From Pseudarthrobacter sp. NamE5 (GTDB lineage: Bacteria; Actinomycetota; Actinomycetes; Actinomycetales; Micrococcaceae), in NCBI RefSeq assembly GCF_005796225.1, contig NZ_VAHO01000004.1:1-64000 (forward strand): DNA of 64,000 bases. The letters run 5' to 3'. The notes under the pieces are model-generated. The model did no database searches. It was not told where the DNA came from and saw only the letters and a list, made by a program, of their open reading frames with translations. The position numbers and the translations under genes were made by a program. Below, piece after piece: positions 17,030-23,743 of the stretch (positions within the stretch are counted from its first letter, which is position 1; each line of letters starts with the position of its first letter).

Positions 17030-17581
17030 TCAGCATCCCGCCTGCACGGCGGACGCCGGAACAACGGCGCGGAGGAAAATGGCGGTGGGACTGAAAGATC
17101 TTCCCGGCGGAGGATGGTCGGCAGATGCCGACGCTCTTTCCTTGGGGGCTACGGCCGGCTGTGCTGCCAGCGGGTGATGGGCTCGTGGTCGGGGTTTGCC
17201 GGCTCTTCGGGTGGACTGCGCGGAACTGCTCTTCATGCCCCGCTGACAGCCCCCAGGCCGGCACCTAGATTTACTGTCCATAAGAGTTTCAGTCTACAGG
17301 AGCAGATGTTCCCGGCCGCGAACTGCGCCGCGGCGCCTAAATGGCAACCAAAGCAGGCAAACCGGGCAGCAAAAACGCGGATTTTCGATGTGTCCGGCCG
17401 CCATATTTCGCACCTTCCGCTTCACTTCATGATTTGGGTCACCCTTATTGGCAGTTAACACGAGATGCTCACTAGACTTGCAAAGGTCTGGGTTCAGAGG
17501 ACGCAGAGATCGGTTCGAACCGAGTGCTGAAGCACCGTGGGGCCGGAGAGAAATCAAACTCATGGAAGAGGCGTATTTCAA
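17030..17581. other. Intergenic region upstream of kgd
   Basis: About 550 bp between divergent genes. I see no convincing protein; short frames here lack codon structure and ribosome-binding sites. It holds the putative kgd promoter at 17448-17478. A 10-bp palindrome GGTTCGAACC at 17512 resembles a tRNA T-arm, but no tRNA fold surrounds it. The promoter of the CNNM pair should also lie here. Confidence 0.6.
17448..17478 (+). promoter_or_regulatory. Putative kgd promoter
   Basis: TTGGCA (17448-17453) and TAGACT (17473-17478) with a 19-bp spacer predict transcription from about 17485, giving a leader of ~97 nt before the GTG start. The spacer is a little long. Confidence 0.4.
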
Positions 17582-20500
17582 GTGCCAGAGCAGCCTAGCC
17601 ACCGTCTACCAGAGGAATTTGGCGGAAACGAGTGGCTCGTTGACGAACTGTACGAGCAGTACCAGCAGGACAAGAACGCCGTGGATGCCAAATGGTGGCC
17701 GCTGTTTGAATCGTTCGAGTCGGGCAACAGTTCTTCTTCCAATGGAAATGCGGCCCGTGCCGCAGCCCACCCTCCCACCAGGGAGATGCCCATCGTGAAT
17801 GCAGCTCCCGCCGCACCGGCACCGTCGCCGGCCCGGGCTCCTGCTGCTCCCCCGGCACCGCCCGCCACCCCGGCCGCGGCCCCGGCGCCCGCGCCGGCAA
17901 AGAAGGCTCCCGCCACCGTGGCCCGCGACGGGGGAAAGAAGACCGGAGCGGAGACGGGATCCCAGCCCATCCCGGCACAGCTGCCCAAGAACGTCAAGGC
18001 ACCCACTGCTCCTGAAGAGGATGTTGTCTCCGTCCTCCGCGGACCCGCCAAGGCGATTGCCACCAACATGGTCACCAGCCTCGAGGTGCCCACCGCCACC
18101 AGCGTCCGCGCCATCCCGGCCAAGCTGCTGATCGACAACCGCGTGGTCATCAACTCGAACCTGGCCCGCGCCCGCGGCGGCAAGGTCTCCTTCACGCACC
18201 TCATCGGCTACGCCGTCATCCGGGCCCTTTCGCAGTTCCCGTCGATGAACGTGTACTACGACGAAGTGGACGGCAAGCCCGTTGCAGTCCAGCCCGCGCA
18301 CGTCAACTTCGGCATCGCCATCGACATGCCCAAGCCGGACGGCACCCGCCTGCTGATGGTGCCGAACATCAAGAAGGCCGAAACCCTCAACTTCTCCGAG
18401 TTCTGGCACACCTACGAGGACCTCATCAAGCGCGCCCGCAACGGCAAGCTGACGGCCGAGGACCACCAGGGCACCACCGTGTCCCTGACGAACCCCGGCG
18501 GCATCGGCACCGTGCACTCAGTGCCGCGCCTGTCCAAGGGCCAGGCTGCCATCATCGGCGTGGGCGCGCTTGACTACCCGGCGGAATTCCAGGGTGCCAG
18601 CGAGAAGATCATCGCCCAGAACGCGATCAGCAAGGTCCTCACCCTGACCTCCACTTACGACCACCGTGTGATCCAGGGCGCCGGCAGCGGTGAGTTCCTG
18701 AAGCTCGTGCACTCGCTGCTGCTGGGTGCGCAAAACTTCTACGACGAGATCTTCGAAGCACTGCGGATCCCCTATGAGCCTGTCCGCTGGAGCGCGGACA
18801 AGCAGGTGGACCCGGCTGATGAGATCAACAAGGTGGCCCGGATCCAGCAGCTGATCCACTCCTACCGTGTCCGTGGACACCTGATGGCGGACACCGATCC
18901 GCTGGAGTACGTGCAGCGCAAGCACCCGGACCTGGACGTCCTCACCTATGGCCTGACCCTGTGGGACCTGGACCGCGAATGGCCCACGGGTGGCTTCGGC
19001 GGCAAGCCCATGTTAAAGTTCCGCGACATCCTGGGAGTCCTTCGCGACGCCTACTGCCGCACCACCGGCATTGAGTACATGCACATCCAGGAGCCGGCCG
19101 AGCGCAAGTGGTTCCAGGACCAGCTGGAACACCCGTACTCGAAGCCCAGCCGTGAAGAGCAGCTGCGTATCGTCTCCAAGCTGAACGCCGCCGAGGCATT
19201 CGAAACGTTCCTGCAGACCAAGTTCGTGGGCCAGAAGCGCTTCTCACTGGAGGGCGGCGAATCCCTGATTCCGCTGCTCGATGCCATCATGTCCGACGCC
19301 GCCGACGACGGCCTGGACGAGGTTGCCATCGGCATGGCACACCGCGGCCGCCTCAACGTACTCACCAACATCGCCGGCAAGACCTACGCCCAGGTCTTCC
19401 GCGAGTTCGAAGGAACCCAGGACCCCCGCTCCGTGCAGGGTTCCGGTGACGTGAAGTACCACCTGGGAACCGAGGGAACCTTCACCTCGGACACCGGCAA
19501 GGAAACCAAGGTCTACCTCGCCGCCAACCCCTCCCACCTCGAGGCCGTGGACCCTGTGCTTGAGGGCATCGTCCGGGCCAAGCAGGACCGGCTGGACCAG
19601 GGCGAATCCTTCCCGGTCCTGCCCATCGTGGTCCACGGTGACGCAGCTTTCGCCGGCCAGGGCGTCGTTGCCGAAACCCTCAACCTGTCCCAGCTGCGCG
19701 GCTACCGTACGGGCGGCACCATCCATATCGTGGTCAACAACCAGGTTGGCTTCACCACTGCTCCCTCATCCTCCCGCTCGTCCACCTACTCGACGGACGT
19801 TGCCAAAATGATCCAGGCACCGGTGTTCCACGTGAACGGCGACGATCCCGAGGCTGTGGTCCGCATTGGCCAGCTCGCCTACGAGTTCCGCCAGCGGTTC
19901 CACAAGGACGTTGTCATCGATATGGTCTGCTACCGCCGCCGCGGGCACAACGAGGGCGACGACCCCTCGATGACCCAGCCGCTGATGTACAACCTCATCG
20001 AGGCCAAGCGCTCGGTCCGCAAGCTGTACACCGAGTCACTGATCGGCCGCGGCGACATCACCGAGGAAGAAGCCGAGCAGCTGCTCCGCGACTACCAGGA
20101 GCGCCTGGAGCGGGTCTTCGCCGAAACCCATGCTGCCCAGACCTCCCCGATTCCGATCGTTACGGCTGACACCGCCGCCGTGTCGGACATCGAACGGCCC
20201 ATGGCGCAGCAGTCGGACTCCGGCAACAGCGCTCCCGTTTCCACCGCCATCTCCGCAGAGACCCTGGCCCGAATCGGCAAGGCCCACGTGGAGATTCCTG
20301 AGGGCTTCACCGTGCACGCCAAGCTCAAGCAGCTGCTTGAGAAGCGTGAACATATGTCCCGTGAAGGCGGCATCGACTGGGGCTTTGGCGAGATCGCAGC
20401 TTTCGGTTCCCTCATCATGGAGGGCGTACCCGTACGTCTCGCCGGGCAGGACTCCCGCCGCGGCACCTTCGTACAGCGCCACGCCGTGTTCCACGACCGC

Positions 20501-21394
20501 GCCAACGGGCAGGAGTGGCTGCCGCTGGGCAACCTCTCCGATGACCAGGCGAAGCTGTGGATCTACGACTCCCTGCTCTCCGAATACGCGGCCATGGGCT
20601 TCGAGTACGGCTACTCCGTGGAGCGGCCGGACGCACTGGTGCTGTGGGAAGCCCAGTTCGGCGACTTCGTCAACGGTGCGCAGACGATCATCGATGAGTT
20701 CATTTCCTCCGCAGAGCAGAAGTGGGGCCAGCGTTCCTCGCTGGTTCTGATGCTGCCCCACGGCTATGAAGGCCAGGGCCCGGACCACTCCTCCGCAAGG
20801 ATCGAGCGGTTCCTGCAGCTGTGTGCCGAAGAGAACATGATCGTGGCCAACCCGACCACGGCGGCTTCGCACTTCCACCTGCTGCGCCGCCAGGCGTACA
20901 GCCGGCCGCGGAAGCCGCTCATCATCTTCACGCCGAAGCAGCTGCTCCGCCTGAAGGCCGCAGCATCGTCGGTAGAGGACTTCACCAGCGGCTCGTTCCG
21001 CCCCGTGATCGGCGAGCACGAGCAGCTGGACGCCAACGCCGTCGAACGCGTGCTGCTGGTCTCCGGCCGCCTGTACTACGACCTCCTGTCCACGCGGCAG
21101 AAAACGGGTGACAAGACCACGGCAATCATCCGCGTGGAGCAGCTCTACCCGCTGCCGCACGAGGAGATCGCAAGGGAACTGGCAAAGTACCCGAACGCCG
21201 AGGTTGTCTGGGCACAGGACGAGCCCGCGAACCAGGGTCCGTGGCCGTTCATTGGTCTGAACCTGCCGGATGCCCTGGACCGCCGGATCCGGCTGGTCTC
21301 CCGCCCTGCTTCGGCTTCCACCGCTGCCGGGTCCATGAAGCGGCATGCTGCTGAGCAGGATGTTCTCCTGAAGCAGGCGTTTGCCCGCAAGTAA
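17582..21394 (+). CDS. kgd: Multifunctional 2-oxoglutarate decarboxylase/dehydrogenase Kgd (SucA/OdhA)
   Basis: A 1270-aa actinobacterial fusion of E2-like and E1 parts of the 2-oxoglutarate dehydrogenase complex (TCA cycle). The N-terminal ~35 residues (LVDELYEQYQQDKNAVDAKW) form the conserved helix that normally starts these proteins. A Pro/Ala/Lys linker follows (to ~residue 105). Next comes the succinyltransferase-type domain (~115-335) with catalytic DHRVIQGAGSGEF, then the ThDP-dependent E1 domain with GMAHRGRLNVL and the ThDP motif region HGDAAFAGQG...NNQVGFTT. There is no lipoyl domain, as expected. I chose GTG at 17582 because it begins the conserved sequence and has GGAAGAGG 10 bp upstream; the frame is open back to 17537. 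Confidence 0.96.
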   Translation: MPEQPSHRLPEEFGGNEWLVDELYEQYQQDKNAVDAKWWPLFESFESGNSSSSNGNAARAAAHPPTREMPIVNAAPAAPAPSPARAPAAPPAPPATPAAAPAPAPAKKAPATVARDGGKKTGAETGSQPIPAQLPKNVKAPTAPEEDVVSVLRGPAKAIATNMVTSLEVPTATSVRAIPAKLLIDNRVVINSNLARARGGKVSFTHLIGYAVIRALSQFPSMNVYYDEVDGKPVAVQPAHVNFGIAIDMPKPDGTRLLMVPNIKKAETLNFSEFWHTYEDLIKRARNGKLTAEDHQGTTVSLTNPGGIGTVHSVPRLSKGQAAIIGVGALDYPAEFQGASEKIIAQNAISKVLTLTSTYDHRVIQGAGSGEFLKLVHSLLLGAQNFYDEIFEALRIPYEPVRWSADKQVDPADEINKVARIQQLIHSYRVRGHLMADTDPLEYVQRKHPDLDVLTYGLTLWDLDREWPTGGFGGKPMLKFRDILGVLRDAYCRTTGIEYMHIQEPAERKWFQDQLEHPYSKPSREEQLRIVSKLNAAEAFETFLQTKFVGQKRFSLEGGESLIPLLDAIMSDAADDGLDEVAIGMAHRGRLNVLTNIAGKTYAQVFREFEGTQDPRSVQGSGDVKYHLGTEGTFTSDTGKETKVYLAANPSHLEAVDPVLEGIVRAKQDRLDQGESFPVLPIVVHGDAAFAGQGVVAETLNLSQLRGYRTGGTIHIVVNNQVGFTTAPSSSRSSTYSTDVAKMIQAPVFHVNGDDPEAVVRIGQLAYEFRQRFHKDVVIDMVCYRRRGHNEGDDPSMTQPLMYNLIEAKRSVRKLYTESLIGRGDITEEEAEQLLRDYQERLERVFAETHAAQTSPIPIVTADTAAVSDIERPMAQQSDSGNSAPVSTAISAETLARIGKAHVEIPEGFTVHAKLKQLLEKREHMSREGGIDWGFGEIAAFGSLIMEGVPVRLAGQDSRRGTFVQRHAVFHDRANGQEWLPLGNLSDDQAKLWIYDSLLSEYAAMGFEYGYSVERPDALVLWEAQFGDFVNGAQTIIDEFISSAEQKWGQRSSLVLMLPHGYEGQGPDHSSARIERFLQLCAEENMIVANPTTAASHFHLLRRQAYSRPRKPLIIFTPKQLLRLKAAASSVEDFTSGSFRPVIGEHEQLDANAVERVLLVSGRLYYDLLSTRQKTGDKTTAIIRVEQLYPLPHEEIARELAKYPNAEVVWAQDEPANQGPWPFIGLNLPDALDRRIRLVSRPASASTAAGSMKRHAAEQDVLLKQAFARK

Positions 21395-21403
21395 GTGCTG
21401 AGG

Positions 21404-21445
21404 CTGCCCGGCCGGATGTCGAAATCCCAGACTCCGGCCGGGCAG
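21404..21445 (+). terminator. Intrinsic terminator of kgd
   Basis: A 13-bp stem (21404-21416 with 21433-21445), 16-nt loop, then TTCTGTTT, starting 9 bp after the kgd stop codon. Confidence 0.8.
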
Positions 21446-21619
21446 TTCTGTTTAATGGAATGCACAGCCCGGATTGGCCGGCACCGCCCGCCGGAAACGG
21501 TCCGGAGATGTCAGCCGGCAGCGTTGACAGGACAGATCACAGCGAACGCACAGCGCCGCTGCGTGGCGAGCACATGCAACCACGGGGCGGCGACAAGGCA
21601 TCGACGTAAAGAGGAACGT

Positions 21620-22219
21620 GTGGAAGACAGGAAACTGCGGATTGCAGCCGTAGGAGATGAACTGCTGGCCGGACTGGGCGATCCCCGGGCCCTCGGCTGG
21701 CTGGGACGCGTCCTGGCCCGCACCCCCAGAGACAGCATGTCCCTGGAAAGCTATGCCCTTCCCTGCCCGCAGGAAGGCACGGAGGGCCTGGCCGCGCGAT
21801 GGCTGGACGAGGCCGGCCGGCGCTTCAGCGACCAGGCCGAAAACCGGCTGGTCATTGGGCTCTCGGGACGGGACGTGGAGTTTGGACTCTCCACCGCCCG
21901 CAGCCGGCTGAACCTGGCCAATATCCTGGACTCTGCCTCACAGAACCGCATTGAAGTCTTCGTCGTGGGTCCGCCGCCCACGCTCGACCCCGCCCAAAAC
22001 CGGCGCCTCGATGAACTCAACACGGCATTCGCCGATGTCACCACCCGCCGCAAGCACCTTTACGTGGACACCTTCTCCCCGTTGCTGCACCACGAACAGT
22101 GGCGCCAGGACCTGGCAGCCAACGGTGGCACGCCGGGGCAGGCCGGCTACGGCCTCATGGCATGGCTGGTGCTCCACCGCGGCTGGTTCCAGTGGTTGGG
22201 CATGGACGTACCCGAATAA
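21620..22219 (+). CDS. GDSL/SGNH-fold protein lacking catalytic residues
   Basis: A 199-aa protein with the layout of a small SGNH/GDSL esterase. Where block I should read GDSL it reads AAVGDELLAGLGDPRALGW, with Glu14 in place of the nucleophilic Ser. Where the C-terminal DGxHP should lie it reads NGGTPGQAGYGLMA, so Asp is replaced by Asn168 and His by Thr171. The fold-supporting parts (VGD start, P-x-x-AGYxLMA end) are kept. Hydrolysis is therefore unlikely; binding or a scaffold role is more plausible. The GTG at 21620 has GAGG 5 bases upstream. It lies between the kgd terminator and the DUF4097 promoter, so it is probably a single-gene unit. Confidence 0.75.
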   Translation: MEDRKLRIAAVGDELLAGLGDPRALGWLGRVLARTPRDSMSLESYALPCPQEGTEGLAARWLDEAGRRFSDQAENRLVIGLSGRDVEFGLSTARSRLNLANILDSASQNRIEVFVVGPPPTLDPAQNRRLDELNTAFADVTTRRKHLYVDTFSPLLHHEQWRQDLAANGGTPGQAGYGLMAWLVLHRGWFQWLGMDVPE

Positions 22220-22223
22220 CCGC

Positions 22224-22289
22224 TATCGCGATATATCTTGACCGCTCATGAGAGCGCAGGTAGCTTGGGAGAACCAACACGATATATCG
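22224..22289 (+). promoter_or_regulatory. Promoter and repeated operators of the DUF4097-padR operon
   Basis: TTGACC (22238-22243), 17-bp spacer, TAGCTT (22261-22266): +1 near 22273. The octamer GATATATC occurs twice: at 22230-22237, touching the -35 and overlapping a 10-bp palindrome TATCGCGATA (22224-22233), and at 22281-22288 within the perfect palindrome CGATATATCG, just after +1. The two sites are 51 bp apart (about five helical turns) and bracket the promoter, a design suited to autorepression by the PadR protein encoded two genes on. Binding is inferred. Confidence 0.65.
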
Positions 22290-22304
22290 CTTTTGGAGGA
22301 TTCC

Positions 22305-23132
22305 ATGCCCGACCAGGAGTGGGCCGTCAGCAGCCCCCAGACCATCGATGTCGACGGCGTGACGCACCTAAAGCTGGGCATGGTGCAGGGCCGGTTCGAC
22401 GTCGTAACGCATCAGGAGCCTGTTGTCCGGATAGAAATATCGGATGTCCACGGGGACCCCGTGGCCGTGTCCCTGAGTGGCGGAAGGCTGGAGATCCGCC
22501 ATCAGTTGCACGGGCCGCAGGGCTGGTTCAAGAACCTCATGGGTACGGTCAACCACAACAGTGAAAACACGGCGGTTATCAGGCTCGCCGTTCCGGCCTC
22601 CATGGATGTGGAGGCGGGAACGGTCAATGGAGATGGACTCGTTTCCGGCGTCACCGGCGACATCCATCTGAACACCGTCTCCGGCTCGGTCAGGGCGGAC
22701 AGCACGGCGGGTGAACTCCACATCAACACGGTCAGCGGGGAAGTCTCGGCCCGGAACCATACCGGCCTCCTGACAGCCAAGAGCGTTTCGGGCGAAGTCA
22801 CGGCATCCGGCCGGCTGAGCAATATCAGGGCCAACACGGTCAGCGGGGATATGAGCTTCGACCTCCTGGGTTTCACCCGGGATTTCGGCGCGAATTCCAT
22901 CTCAGGCGACCTCACCATTCGGCTGCCCCATGACGTCGGCGTTGACATCGTTGCTAAATCCGCCAGTGGTGCTGTTGTCATCGGGGATCAGCGGTACGCC
23001 TTGGCCAACGGGAAAGTGGAAACCATTGCGGGCCCTGACGGGCAGCTTATGCTCGTCCGGACCAACTCGGTTTCCGGCAAGACCTCCATCTTCCACAGGG
23101 CGGTGGCAGGAAACGCAGAAGCAGGATCCTGA
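22305..23132 (+). CDS. DUF4097-family beta-strand repeat protein
   Basis: A 275-aa protein rich in short repeats of the form NTVSGxVxAxxxxGxLxI (HLNTVSGSVRADSTAGELHI, NTVSGEVSARNHTGLLTAKS, NTVSGDMSF, NSISGDLTIRLP), the DUF4097 solenoid expected to form a beta helix. There is no signal peptide or transmembrane segment. The start is ATG 22305 with GGAGGA 5 bp upstream. Its TGA overlaps the padR ATG (TGATG). DUF4097 proteins often lie beside PadR regulators; the biochemical role is not established, and surface adhesin or envelope-stress roles have been proposed by context only. Confidence 0.88.
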   Translation: MPDQEWAVSSPQTIDVDGVTHLKLGMVQGRFDVVTHQEPVVRIEISDVHGDPVAVSLSGGRLEIRHQLHGPQGWFKNLMGTVNHNSENTAVIRLAVPASMDVEAGTVNGDGLVSGVTGDIHLNTVSGSVRADSTAGELHINTVSGEVSARNHTGLLTAKSVSGEVTASGRLSNIRANTVSGDMSFDLLGFTRDFGANSISGDLTIRLPHDVGVDIVAKSASGAVVIGDQRYALANGKVETIAGPDGQLMLVRTNSVSGKTSIFHRAVAGNAEAGS

Positions 23133-23743
23133 TGGCACCGGTTTTCGCCCACGGAGCGCTTCGCCTGTACCTGCTGGCGCTGCTGGAGTCGGGGCCGAAA
23201 CACGGCTACGAACTTATCAAGGCGCTCAAGGAGCGGTTCGGCGGTACATACTCCCCCAGCGCAGGAACCATTTACCCCCGGCTCGGAAAACTTGAGGAGG
23301 AAGGGCTGGTGGCCACGCAGTCCGCCGGCCGCCGCACCAACTACTACATCACTGCATCAGGTCTTGCAGAGCTGAACCGCCGCCGTGATGAACTGGCGGG
23401 CGTCGAGAGCGAGATTTCGGCTTCCGTCCGGCGCCTGGCGGACACCGTGAGGGAGGATATCCGCAGCAATATGAGGGGGCTGCGGGCAAACCTTGCAGCC
23501 ACTGCAGAAGCGGCGAGGGCTACAGCCCGGTCCACGGACCTGACAGTTTCCGGCCAAATGCCGGCACAAAACCAGCGCTCCCTTAAGGAAGCCGAAATGA
23601 TGCTCCAGTCTTTCCGGGACGGTCTAAGGGCTGAACTAAGGCGGCACGCCGGCAAGGAGCCGCTCAGCCCCCTGGCTTTGGAGACAGTCCGGACGGTGCT
23701 GGAACAGGCTGGTATTTCCATCCGCAATTCCCTCAAATCCTAG
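23132..23743 (+). CDS. PadR-family transcriptional regulator
   Basis: A 203-aa PadR/Vtr-type regulator. The N-terminal winged helix (residues ~8-85) has the family pattern LRLYLLALLESGPKHGYELI and SAGTIYPRLGKLEEEGLV, followed by RRTNYYITASGLAEL. A long C-terminal helical part (VRRLADTVREDIRSNMRGLR onwards) probably mediates dimerisation. It is coupled to the DUF4097 gene by a TGATG overlap and is the natural candidate to bind the GATATATC elements upstream of the operon. Confidence 0.9.
   Translation: MAPVFAHGALRLYLLALLESGPKHGYELIKALKERFGGTYSPSAGTIYPRLGKLEEEGLVATQSAGRRTNYYITASGLAELNRRRDELAGVESEISASVRRLADTVREDIRSNMRGLRANLAATAEAARATARSTDLTVSGQMPAQNQRSLKEAEMMLQSFRDGLRAELRRHAGKEPLSPLALETVRTVLEQAGISIRNSLKS

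Follow-up and report, generated by a model that had tools for sequence, protein, structure and literature searches.

An SGNH-fold protein without canonical catalytic residues, encoded behind the 2-oxoglutarate dehydrogenase gene kgd in Pseudarthrobacter

Analysis of a 64,000-nucleotide stretch of the Pseudarthrobacter sp. NamE5 genome (the window) revealed a true SGNH-fold protein in which every canonical active-site residue is replaced and whose gene is under strong purifying selection. We favor, with modest confidence, the reading that this pseudo-SGNH protein is a cytosolic, Alr1529-type pseudo-hydrolase that binds a ligand or a partner, perhaps at the 2-oxoglutarate node. From the domain match alone, such proteins would be annotated as GDSL esterases, a label that is probably incorrect across most of an order.

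The protein has an SGNH fold of the Alr1529 type

The gene and its translation signal, read from the sequence, are as follows.
21610 to 21615, forward strand: ribosome-binding site AGAGGA, 4 bases 5' of the GTG start
21620 to 22219, forward strand: pseudo-SGNH protein gene, GTG start, 199 codons (199 amino acids)

The product has no apparent signal peptide and opens directly with the first beta strand (residues 4-10, a strand in the AF2 model). Its best named match is a protein of Pseudarthrobacter sp. NamB4, with 99% over the window protein. It matches PF13472 (Lipase_GDSL_2) with 54.8 bits over model positions 1-176 of 178, against a curated cut-off of 32.9 bits. The genome contains 12 PF13472 matches, this one included; no NCBIfam family matches the protein. 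The nearest solved structure by sequence is Alr1529 of Nostoc (PDB 1vjg and 1z8h; E 3.8e-17), and a profile built on 81 orthologues matches 1vjg with E 1.1e-48. The AF2 model, predicted from a shallow alignment of 47 close rows (mean pLDDT 66, pTM 0.69) and adequate for the fold but too low in confidence for the pocket, has the flavodoxin-like alpha/beta/alpha architecture and was matched to 1vjg by Foldseek (E 8e-11, TMq 0.78). Together, the PF13472 score, the sequence and profile matches to 1vjg and the model comparison make the assignment to the SGNH fold sound, in agreement with the original prediction of an SGNH/GDSL-like protein whose fold and structural residues persist without the triad.

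PMC10779480, citing Bakshy 2009, describes Alr1529 of Nostoc/Anabaena PCC 7120 as an SGNH hydrolase variant and a serine hydrolase in which Arg54, found where block II usually has Gly, is important for activity; our matching of the Arg54 number was made by count from the chain alignment. The same paper records SGNH variants with altered block II residues. The window protein aligns with Alr1529 over its full length and shares with it the block I extension GDP..LGW.GR and the Arg and Trp positions equivalent to R60, R68 and W161, and so belongs to the Alr1529 subfamily. In contrast to the window protein, Alr1529 retains the Ser (GDS), DGVH and Arg54.

All five catalytic and oxyanion positions are changed

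The active site was read by alignment to Alr1529 and to approximately 80 orthologues, which located the following positions, all five catalytic and oxyanion positions being changed in the window protein.
21659 to 21661, forward strand: Glu14 codon (GAA), replacing the nucleophilic Ser of block I, aligned to GDSF of Alr1529 and GDS of the class outgroups
21770 to 21772, forward strand: Gln51 codon, in place of the oxyanion Gly of block II, where Alr1529 has Arg and most relatives have Gly
21869 to 21871, forward strand: Arg84 codon, in place of the oxyanion Asn of block III (by alignment)
22091 to 22093, forward strand: His158 codon, invariant in 62 of 62 sampled Ser-less orthologues
22121 to 22132, forward strand: Asn168-Gly169-Gly170-Thr171, what is left of block V after a one-residue deletion (by alignment)

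Block I aligns to GDSF of Alr1529 without a gap, GDE standing against GDS, which bears out the predicted replacement of Ser by Glu14. In block V, the order-wide alignment reads 'GDGVHPGQAGYG' compared with 'NGGT-PGQAGYG' in the window's family, indicating the loss of one residue. The original prediction had placed the Asp-His pair at Asn168 and Thr171. Both residues are indeed lost, and the His position corresponds to Thr171 or to the deleted residue, but the column of the catalytic Asp is Gly169, where close relatives with NDGR-P have Asp; Asn168 had been reached by counting back three residues in a block that is one residue short. No Asp-x-x-His is left in block V of the window protein. The prediction that every catalytic position is changed thus held for Ser, Asp and His and had missed the two oxyanion changes, Gln51 and Arg84.

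None of the features of an active SGNH hydrolase (the GDS Ser, the oxyanion Gly and Asn, and Asp-x-x-His) was found in the window protein. Because nucleophile, acid, base and oxyanion residues are all gone, hydrolysis of the SGNH type by this protein is very unlikely.

The nucleophile was probably lost first

Orthologues were present in 241 of 297 genomes of the order, nearly always in single copy, in almost all genomes examined of the same genus (also single copy), and in 46 of 297 genomes of a class-wide sample. Viral contigs yielded one 27-residue fragment only. Beyond the window's family, identity was mostly 45-60%.

Among the 81 sampled orthologues, all five canonical residues were present in five and none in 13, the window protein included, and a graded series connects these extremes, so that the sequence of an enzyme's death can be read directly from living intermediates. 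Ser, Asp and His are all kept in relatives from other families of the class (L205-L212), in the distant family f36 (L199-L204) and, within the order, in the majority of members of two families. Rows bearing Ser have His in 19 of 19 cases and Asp in 18 of 19, whereas His is found in only 25 of the 62 Ser-less rows.

A first tree placed Ser-bearing Micrococcales within the Ser-less rows, as if Ser had been regained; this was traced to the joining of two long branches (L157 and L159). With these two removed, 59 Ser-less rows, all but L151, grouped together as a single clade with an SH-aLRT of 91 (not starred); the changes counted were two for Ser, seven for His and nine for Asp. Since His is universal in Ser-bearing rows and Ser-less rows form a single clade, the nucleophile was probably lost first and once, and Asp and His later and repeatedly. 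L151 (genome G126) is a separate case: within the Ser-keeping family f17 it has independently lost Ser (to Glu), Asp and His, and so represents parallel evolution of the same Ser-to-Glu change. Orthologues with Ser, Asp and His, which had been named in advance as evidence against the prediction, occur only outside the Ser-less clade, in other families of the class; many orthologues with Glu14 do keep Asp-His.

Two orthologues of f17 (G230:C1:972174-972764 and G209:C31:23828-24415) carry one in-frame TGA each, possibly reflecting local pseudogenization or a shifted start site in a lineage that otherwise mostly keeps Ser.

The gene usually lies directly behind kgd

The upstream neighbor of the pseudo-SGNH gene was identified by Pfam, PDB and synteny.
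17537 to 21394, forward strand: kgd/odhA, encoding the two-in-one actinobacterial 2-oxoglutarate dehydrogenase E1/E2

Its product contains the Pfam domains E1_dh, 2-oxoacid_dh, Transket_pyr and OxoGdeHyase_C and matches the solved Kgd/OdhA structures 8p5r, 2xt6 and 8p5t. In a sample of 86 orthologue loci (L119-L204), from which a near-identical Arthrobacter set was left out, 74 had kgd as the immediately preceding gene, on the same strand and less than 600 bp away, and eight more had it within 5 kb; start codons in this count were chosen by script, and single distances to kgd are approximate. In seven loci the end of kgd and the start of the pseudo-SGNH gene share 4 bp, and in six more the spacing is -1 to 8 bp. 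Within the order, a longer block is conserved, comprising corC, kgd, the pseudo-SGNH gene, sigma/anti-sigma genes, aroA and beyond, and the adjacency to kgd is therefore in part general synteny. In f36, kgd was upstream in six of six loci and the other window neighbors were absent save for weak PadR matches; thus the pair is common to lineages with differing surroundings. No kgd was found within approximately 6 kb in the outgroup loci with canonical residues (L205-L212).

The pairing is not obligate, because three genomes (G158, G191 and G241) in which kgd was not detected retain a pseudo-SGNH protein, each with 32 of 34 conserved residues. Conversely, family f19 (e.g. L226-L230) has kgd but seems to lack the protein, and in family f4 both are absent. 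A hidden orthologue behind kgd in f19 was sought by profile search of five loci, and none was found. Based on gene order, a functional tie to Kgd is a tentative proposal, somewhat short of an even chance. If the link is functional, the protein would be a new player at the 2-oxoglutarate node, where the TCA cycle meets glutamate synthesis and which is central to actinobacterial physiology and amino-acid fermentation. A more specific version, unlikely as it stands though conceivable, is that the pseudo-hydrolase arose in steps from an active (thio)esterase, which another actinobacterial family still encodes behind kgd, and now serves the two-in-one 2-oxoglutarate dehydrogenase as an unrecognized regulator or ligand sensor.

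A narrower alternative is that the protein serves as a dedicated subunit or regulator of Kgd/OdhA and has no other function. OdhI/GarA, a small cytosolic protein controlling Kgd/OdhA, is the candidate analogue. It has an FHA fold, unrelated to that of the pseudo-SGNH protein. Inhibition of the actinobacterial 2-oxoglutarate dehydrogenase by OdhI/GarA was shown experimentally (PMC9769921), whereas the link of the pseudo-SGNH protein to Kgd is genomic only. Adjacency in two distant lineages favors such a dedicated role, and the 4-bp overlaps suggest translational coupling, but the retention of the protein in three genomes without kgd and its loss from f19, which retains kgd, make this alternative rather improbable. 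No report of an SGNH protein tied to OdhA was found in the literature searched, which mostly excluded subscription papers.

Several further features of these loci were observed. In the 1.9 Mb genome G191 (L237, G191:C7:100109-112675), kgd is gone from between corC and the pseudo-SGNH gene and the sigma factor, aroA and following genes are kept, an apparent natural loss of 2-oxoglutarate dehydrogenase. The f36 orthologues (L199-L204), which lie directly behind kgd with Ser, Asp and His intact, could represent an active (thio)esterase acting at the 2-oxoglutarate node. In Arthrobacter, the pseudo-SGNH gene is followed by genes for a DUF4097 protein and a PadR regulator (22248-23743), which look like a movable two-gene unit because elsewhere they are differently placed or absent. 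A scan of 21300-22320 for promoters and terminators found none and was uninformative.

Selection maintains the domain around the lost active site

The median dN/dS of the window gene against 80 orthologues was 0.056, a sign of strong purifying selection; together with the conservation, this value rules out a pseudogene or a sequencing error. In the 62 Ser-less rows, G12, G20, D21, G26, W27, R30, R60, R68, D85, H158, W161, P172, Q174, G176 and H186 are invariant, and G20, D21, G26, W27, R30, R60, R68 and W161 are invariant across all 81 rows; some 30 non-catalytic residues are near-invariant. The old catalytic positions are among the freer ones, ranking 165 (the Asn at position 84), 128 (Asp) and 154 (His) of 199 in the Ser-less rows. 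Position 14 is E in 47 of these rows, D in nine, A in four and Q in two. The residue preceding P172 in Ser-less rows across the order is H in 25, T and L in nine each, R in six, Y in five and A in four, with others in the remainder. The expectation that GDE and NGGT would be conserved was largely borne out for Glu at position 14; NGGT is kept only close to the genus and is not a conserved motif.

Loss of catalytic residues is thus retained across orthologues along with purifying selection, the pattern of a pseudoenzyme. Strong constraint falls on an Arg- and Trp-rich set within and beyond block I, as well as on H158, W161 and H186; this points to a binding or regulatory role, which we consider reasonably likely. 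From their places in the SGNH blocks, the conserved residues would be expected to ring the old pocket. The fold is preserved without the triad under strong selection, so there is good support for the original proposal that the protein has been repurposed, probably for binding.

We propose that most Micrococcales descend from an ancestor in which an active relative, encoded behind kgd/odhA, lost its nucleophile in a single event, and that the Asp-His dyad and the oxyanion residues were then lost piecemeal. Selection keeps the rest of the domain around the old active-site blocks, namely GD..LGW.GR in block I, R60/R68, D85, H158/W161, Q174, H186 and W189/W192. Because the rest of the domain is kept around the lost catalytic blocks, we propose that the protein has given up hydrolysis altogether. 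It would instead accommodate an anionic ligand where the active site used to be, or dock on another protein, and so serve as a regulator or scaffold; the 2-oxoglutarate dehydrogenase node (Kgd/OdhA) is the best candidate setting. A precedent is ERMO3/MVP1/GOLD36 of Arabidopsis, a plant GDSL-family pseudoenzyme that likewise lacks the catalytic Ser and has a non-hydrolytic cellular role with protein partners (PMC3498303, PMC4757993), although it is a distant protein of the plant secretory pathway and its loss has a separate origin. The literature searched, which mostly excluded subscription papers, described no comparable family of SGNH pseudoenzymes from bacteria.

Alternatively, catalysis could have been re-invented, with Glu14 as general base or nucleophile acting together with an invariant His (158 or 186) or the conserved arginines. 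The very strong constraint on the gene, the invariance of both histidines in 62 of 62 Ser-less rows and the carboxylate at position 14 in 56 of them are consistent with an enzyme. However, a carboxylate at position 14 is usual rather than required, since six Ser-less rows have Ala or Gln there, and the oxyanion Asn position varies freely. His158 is already present in nine of 19 Ser-bearing rows and so was not gained as a substitute for the lost triad. We consider this alternative, and with it the suggestion in the original prediction of a chemistry using Glu14, the weaker reading and improbable. Slow decay of a redundant ex-esterase retained by chance could account for the drift of catalytic positions in blocks III and V and for the outright loss of the gene in f19, but is largely refuted by the selection signal (the low dN/dS, the near-invariant residues and the single copy in most of the order) and has very little probability. 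Equally hard to credit is a mis-aligned working esterase using the fairly conserved Ser91 or Ser95, given the gapless block I, the missing Asp-x-x-His and the location of these serines outside the SGNH blocks, where the helix following block III begins in the AF2 model. A different Ser in the active site had been named in advance as evidence against the prediction; in block I of the Ser-less rows, no conserved Ser, Thr or Cys takes the place of the nucleophile.

Finally, one complete Arthrobacter chromosome record (CP116670.1) has the same gene near both of its ends (L085 and L087), possibly reflecting overlapping assembly ends.
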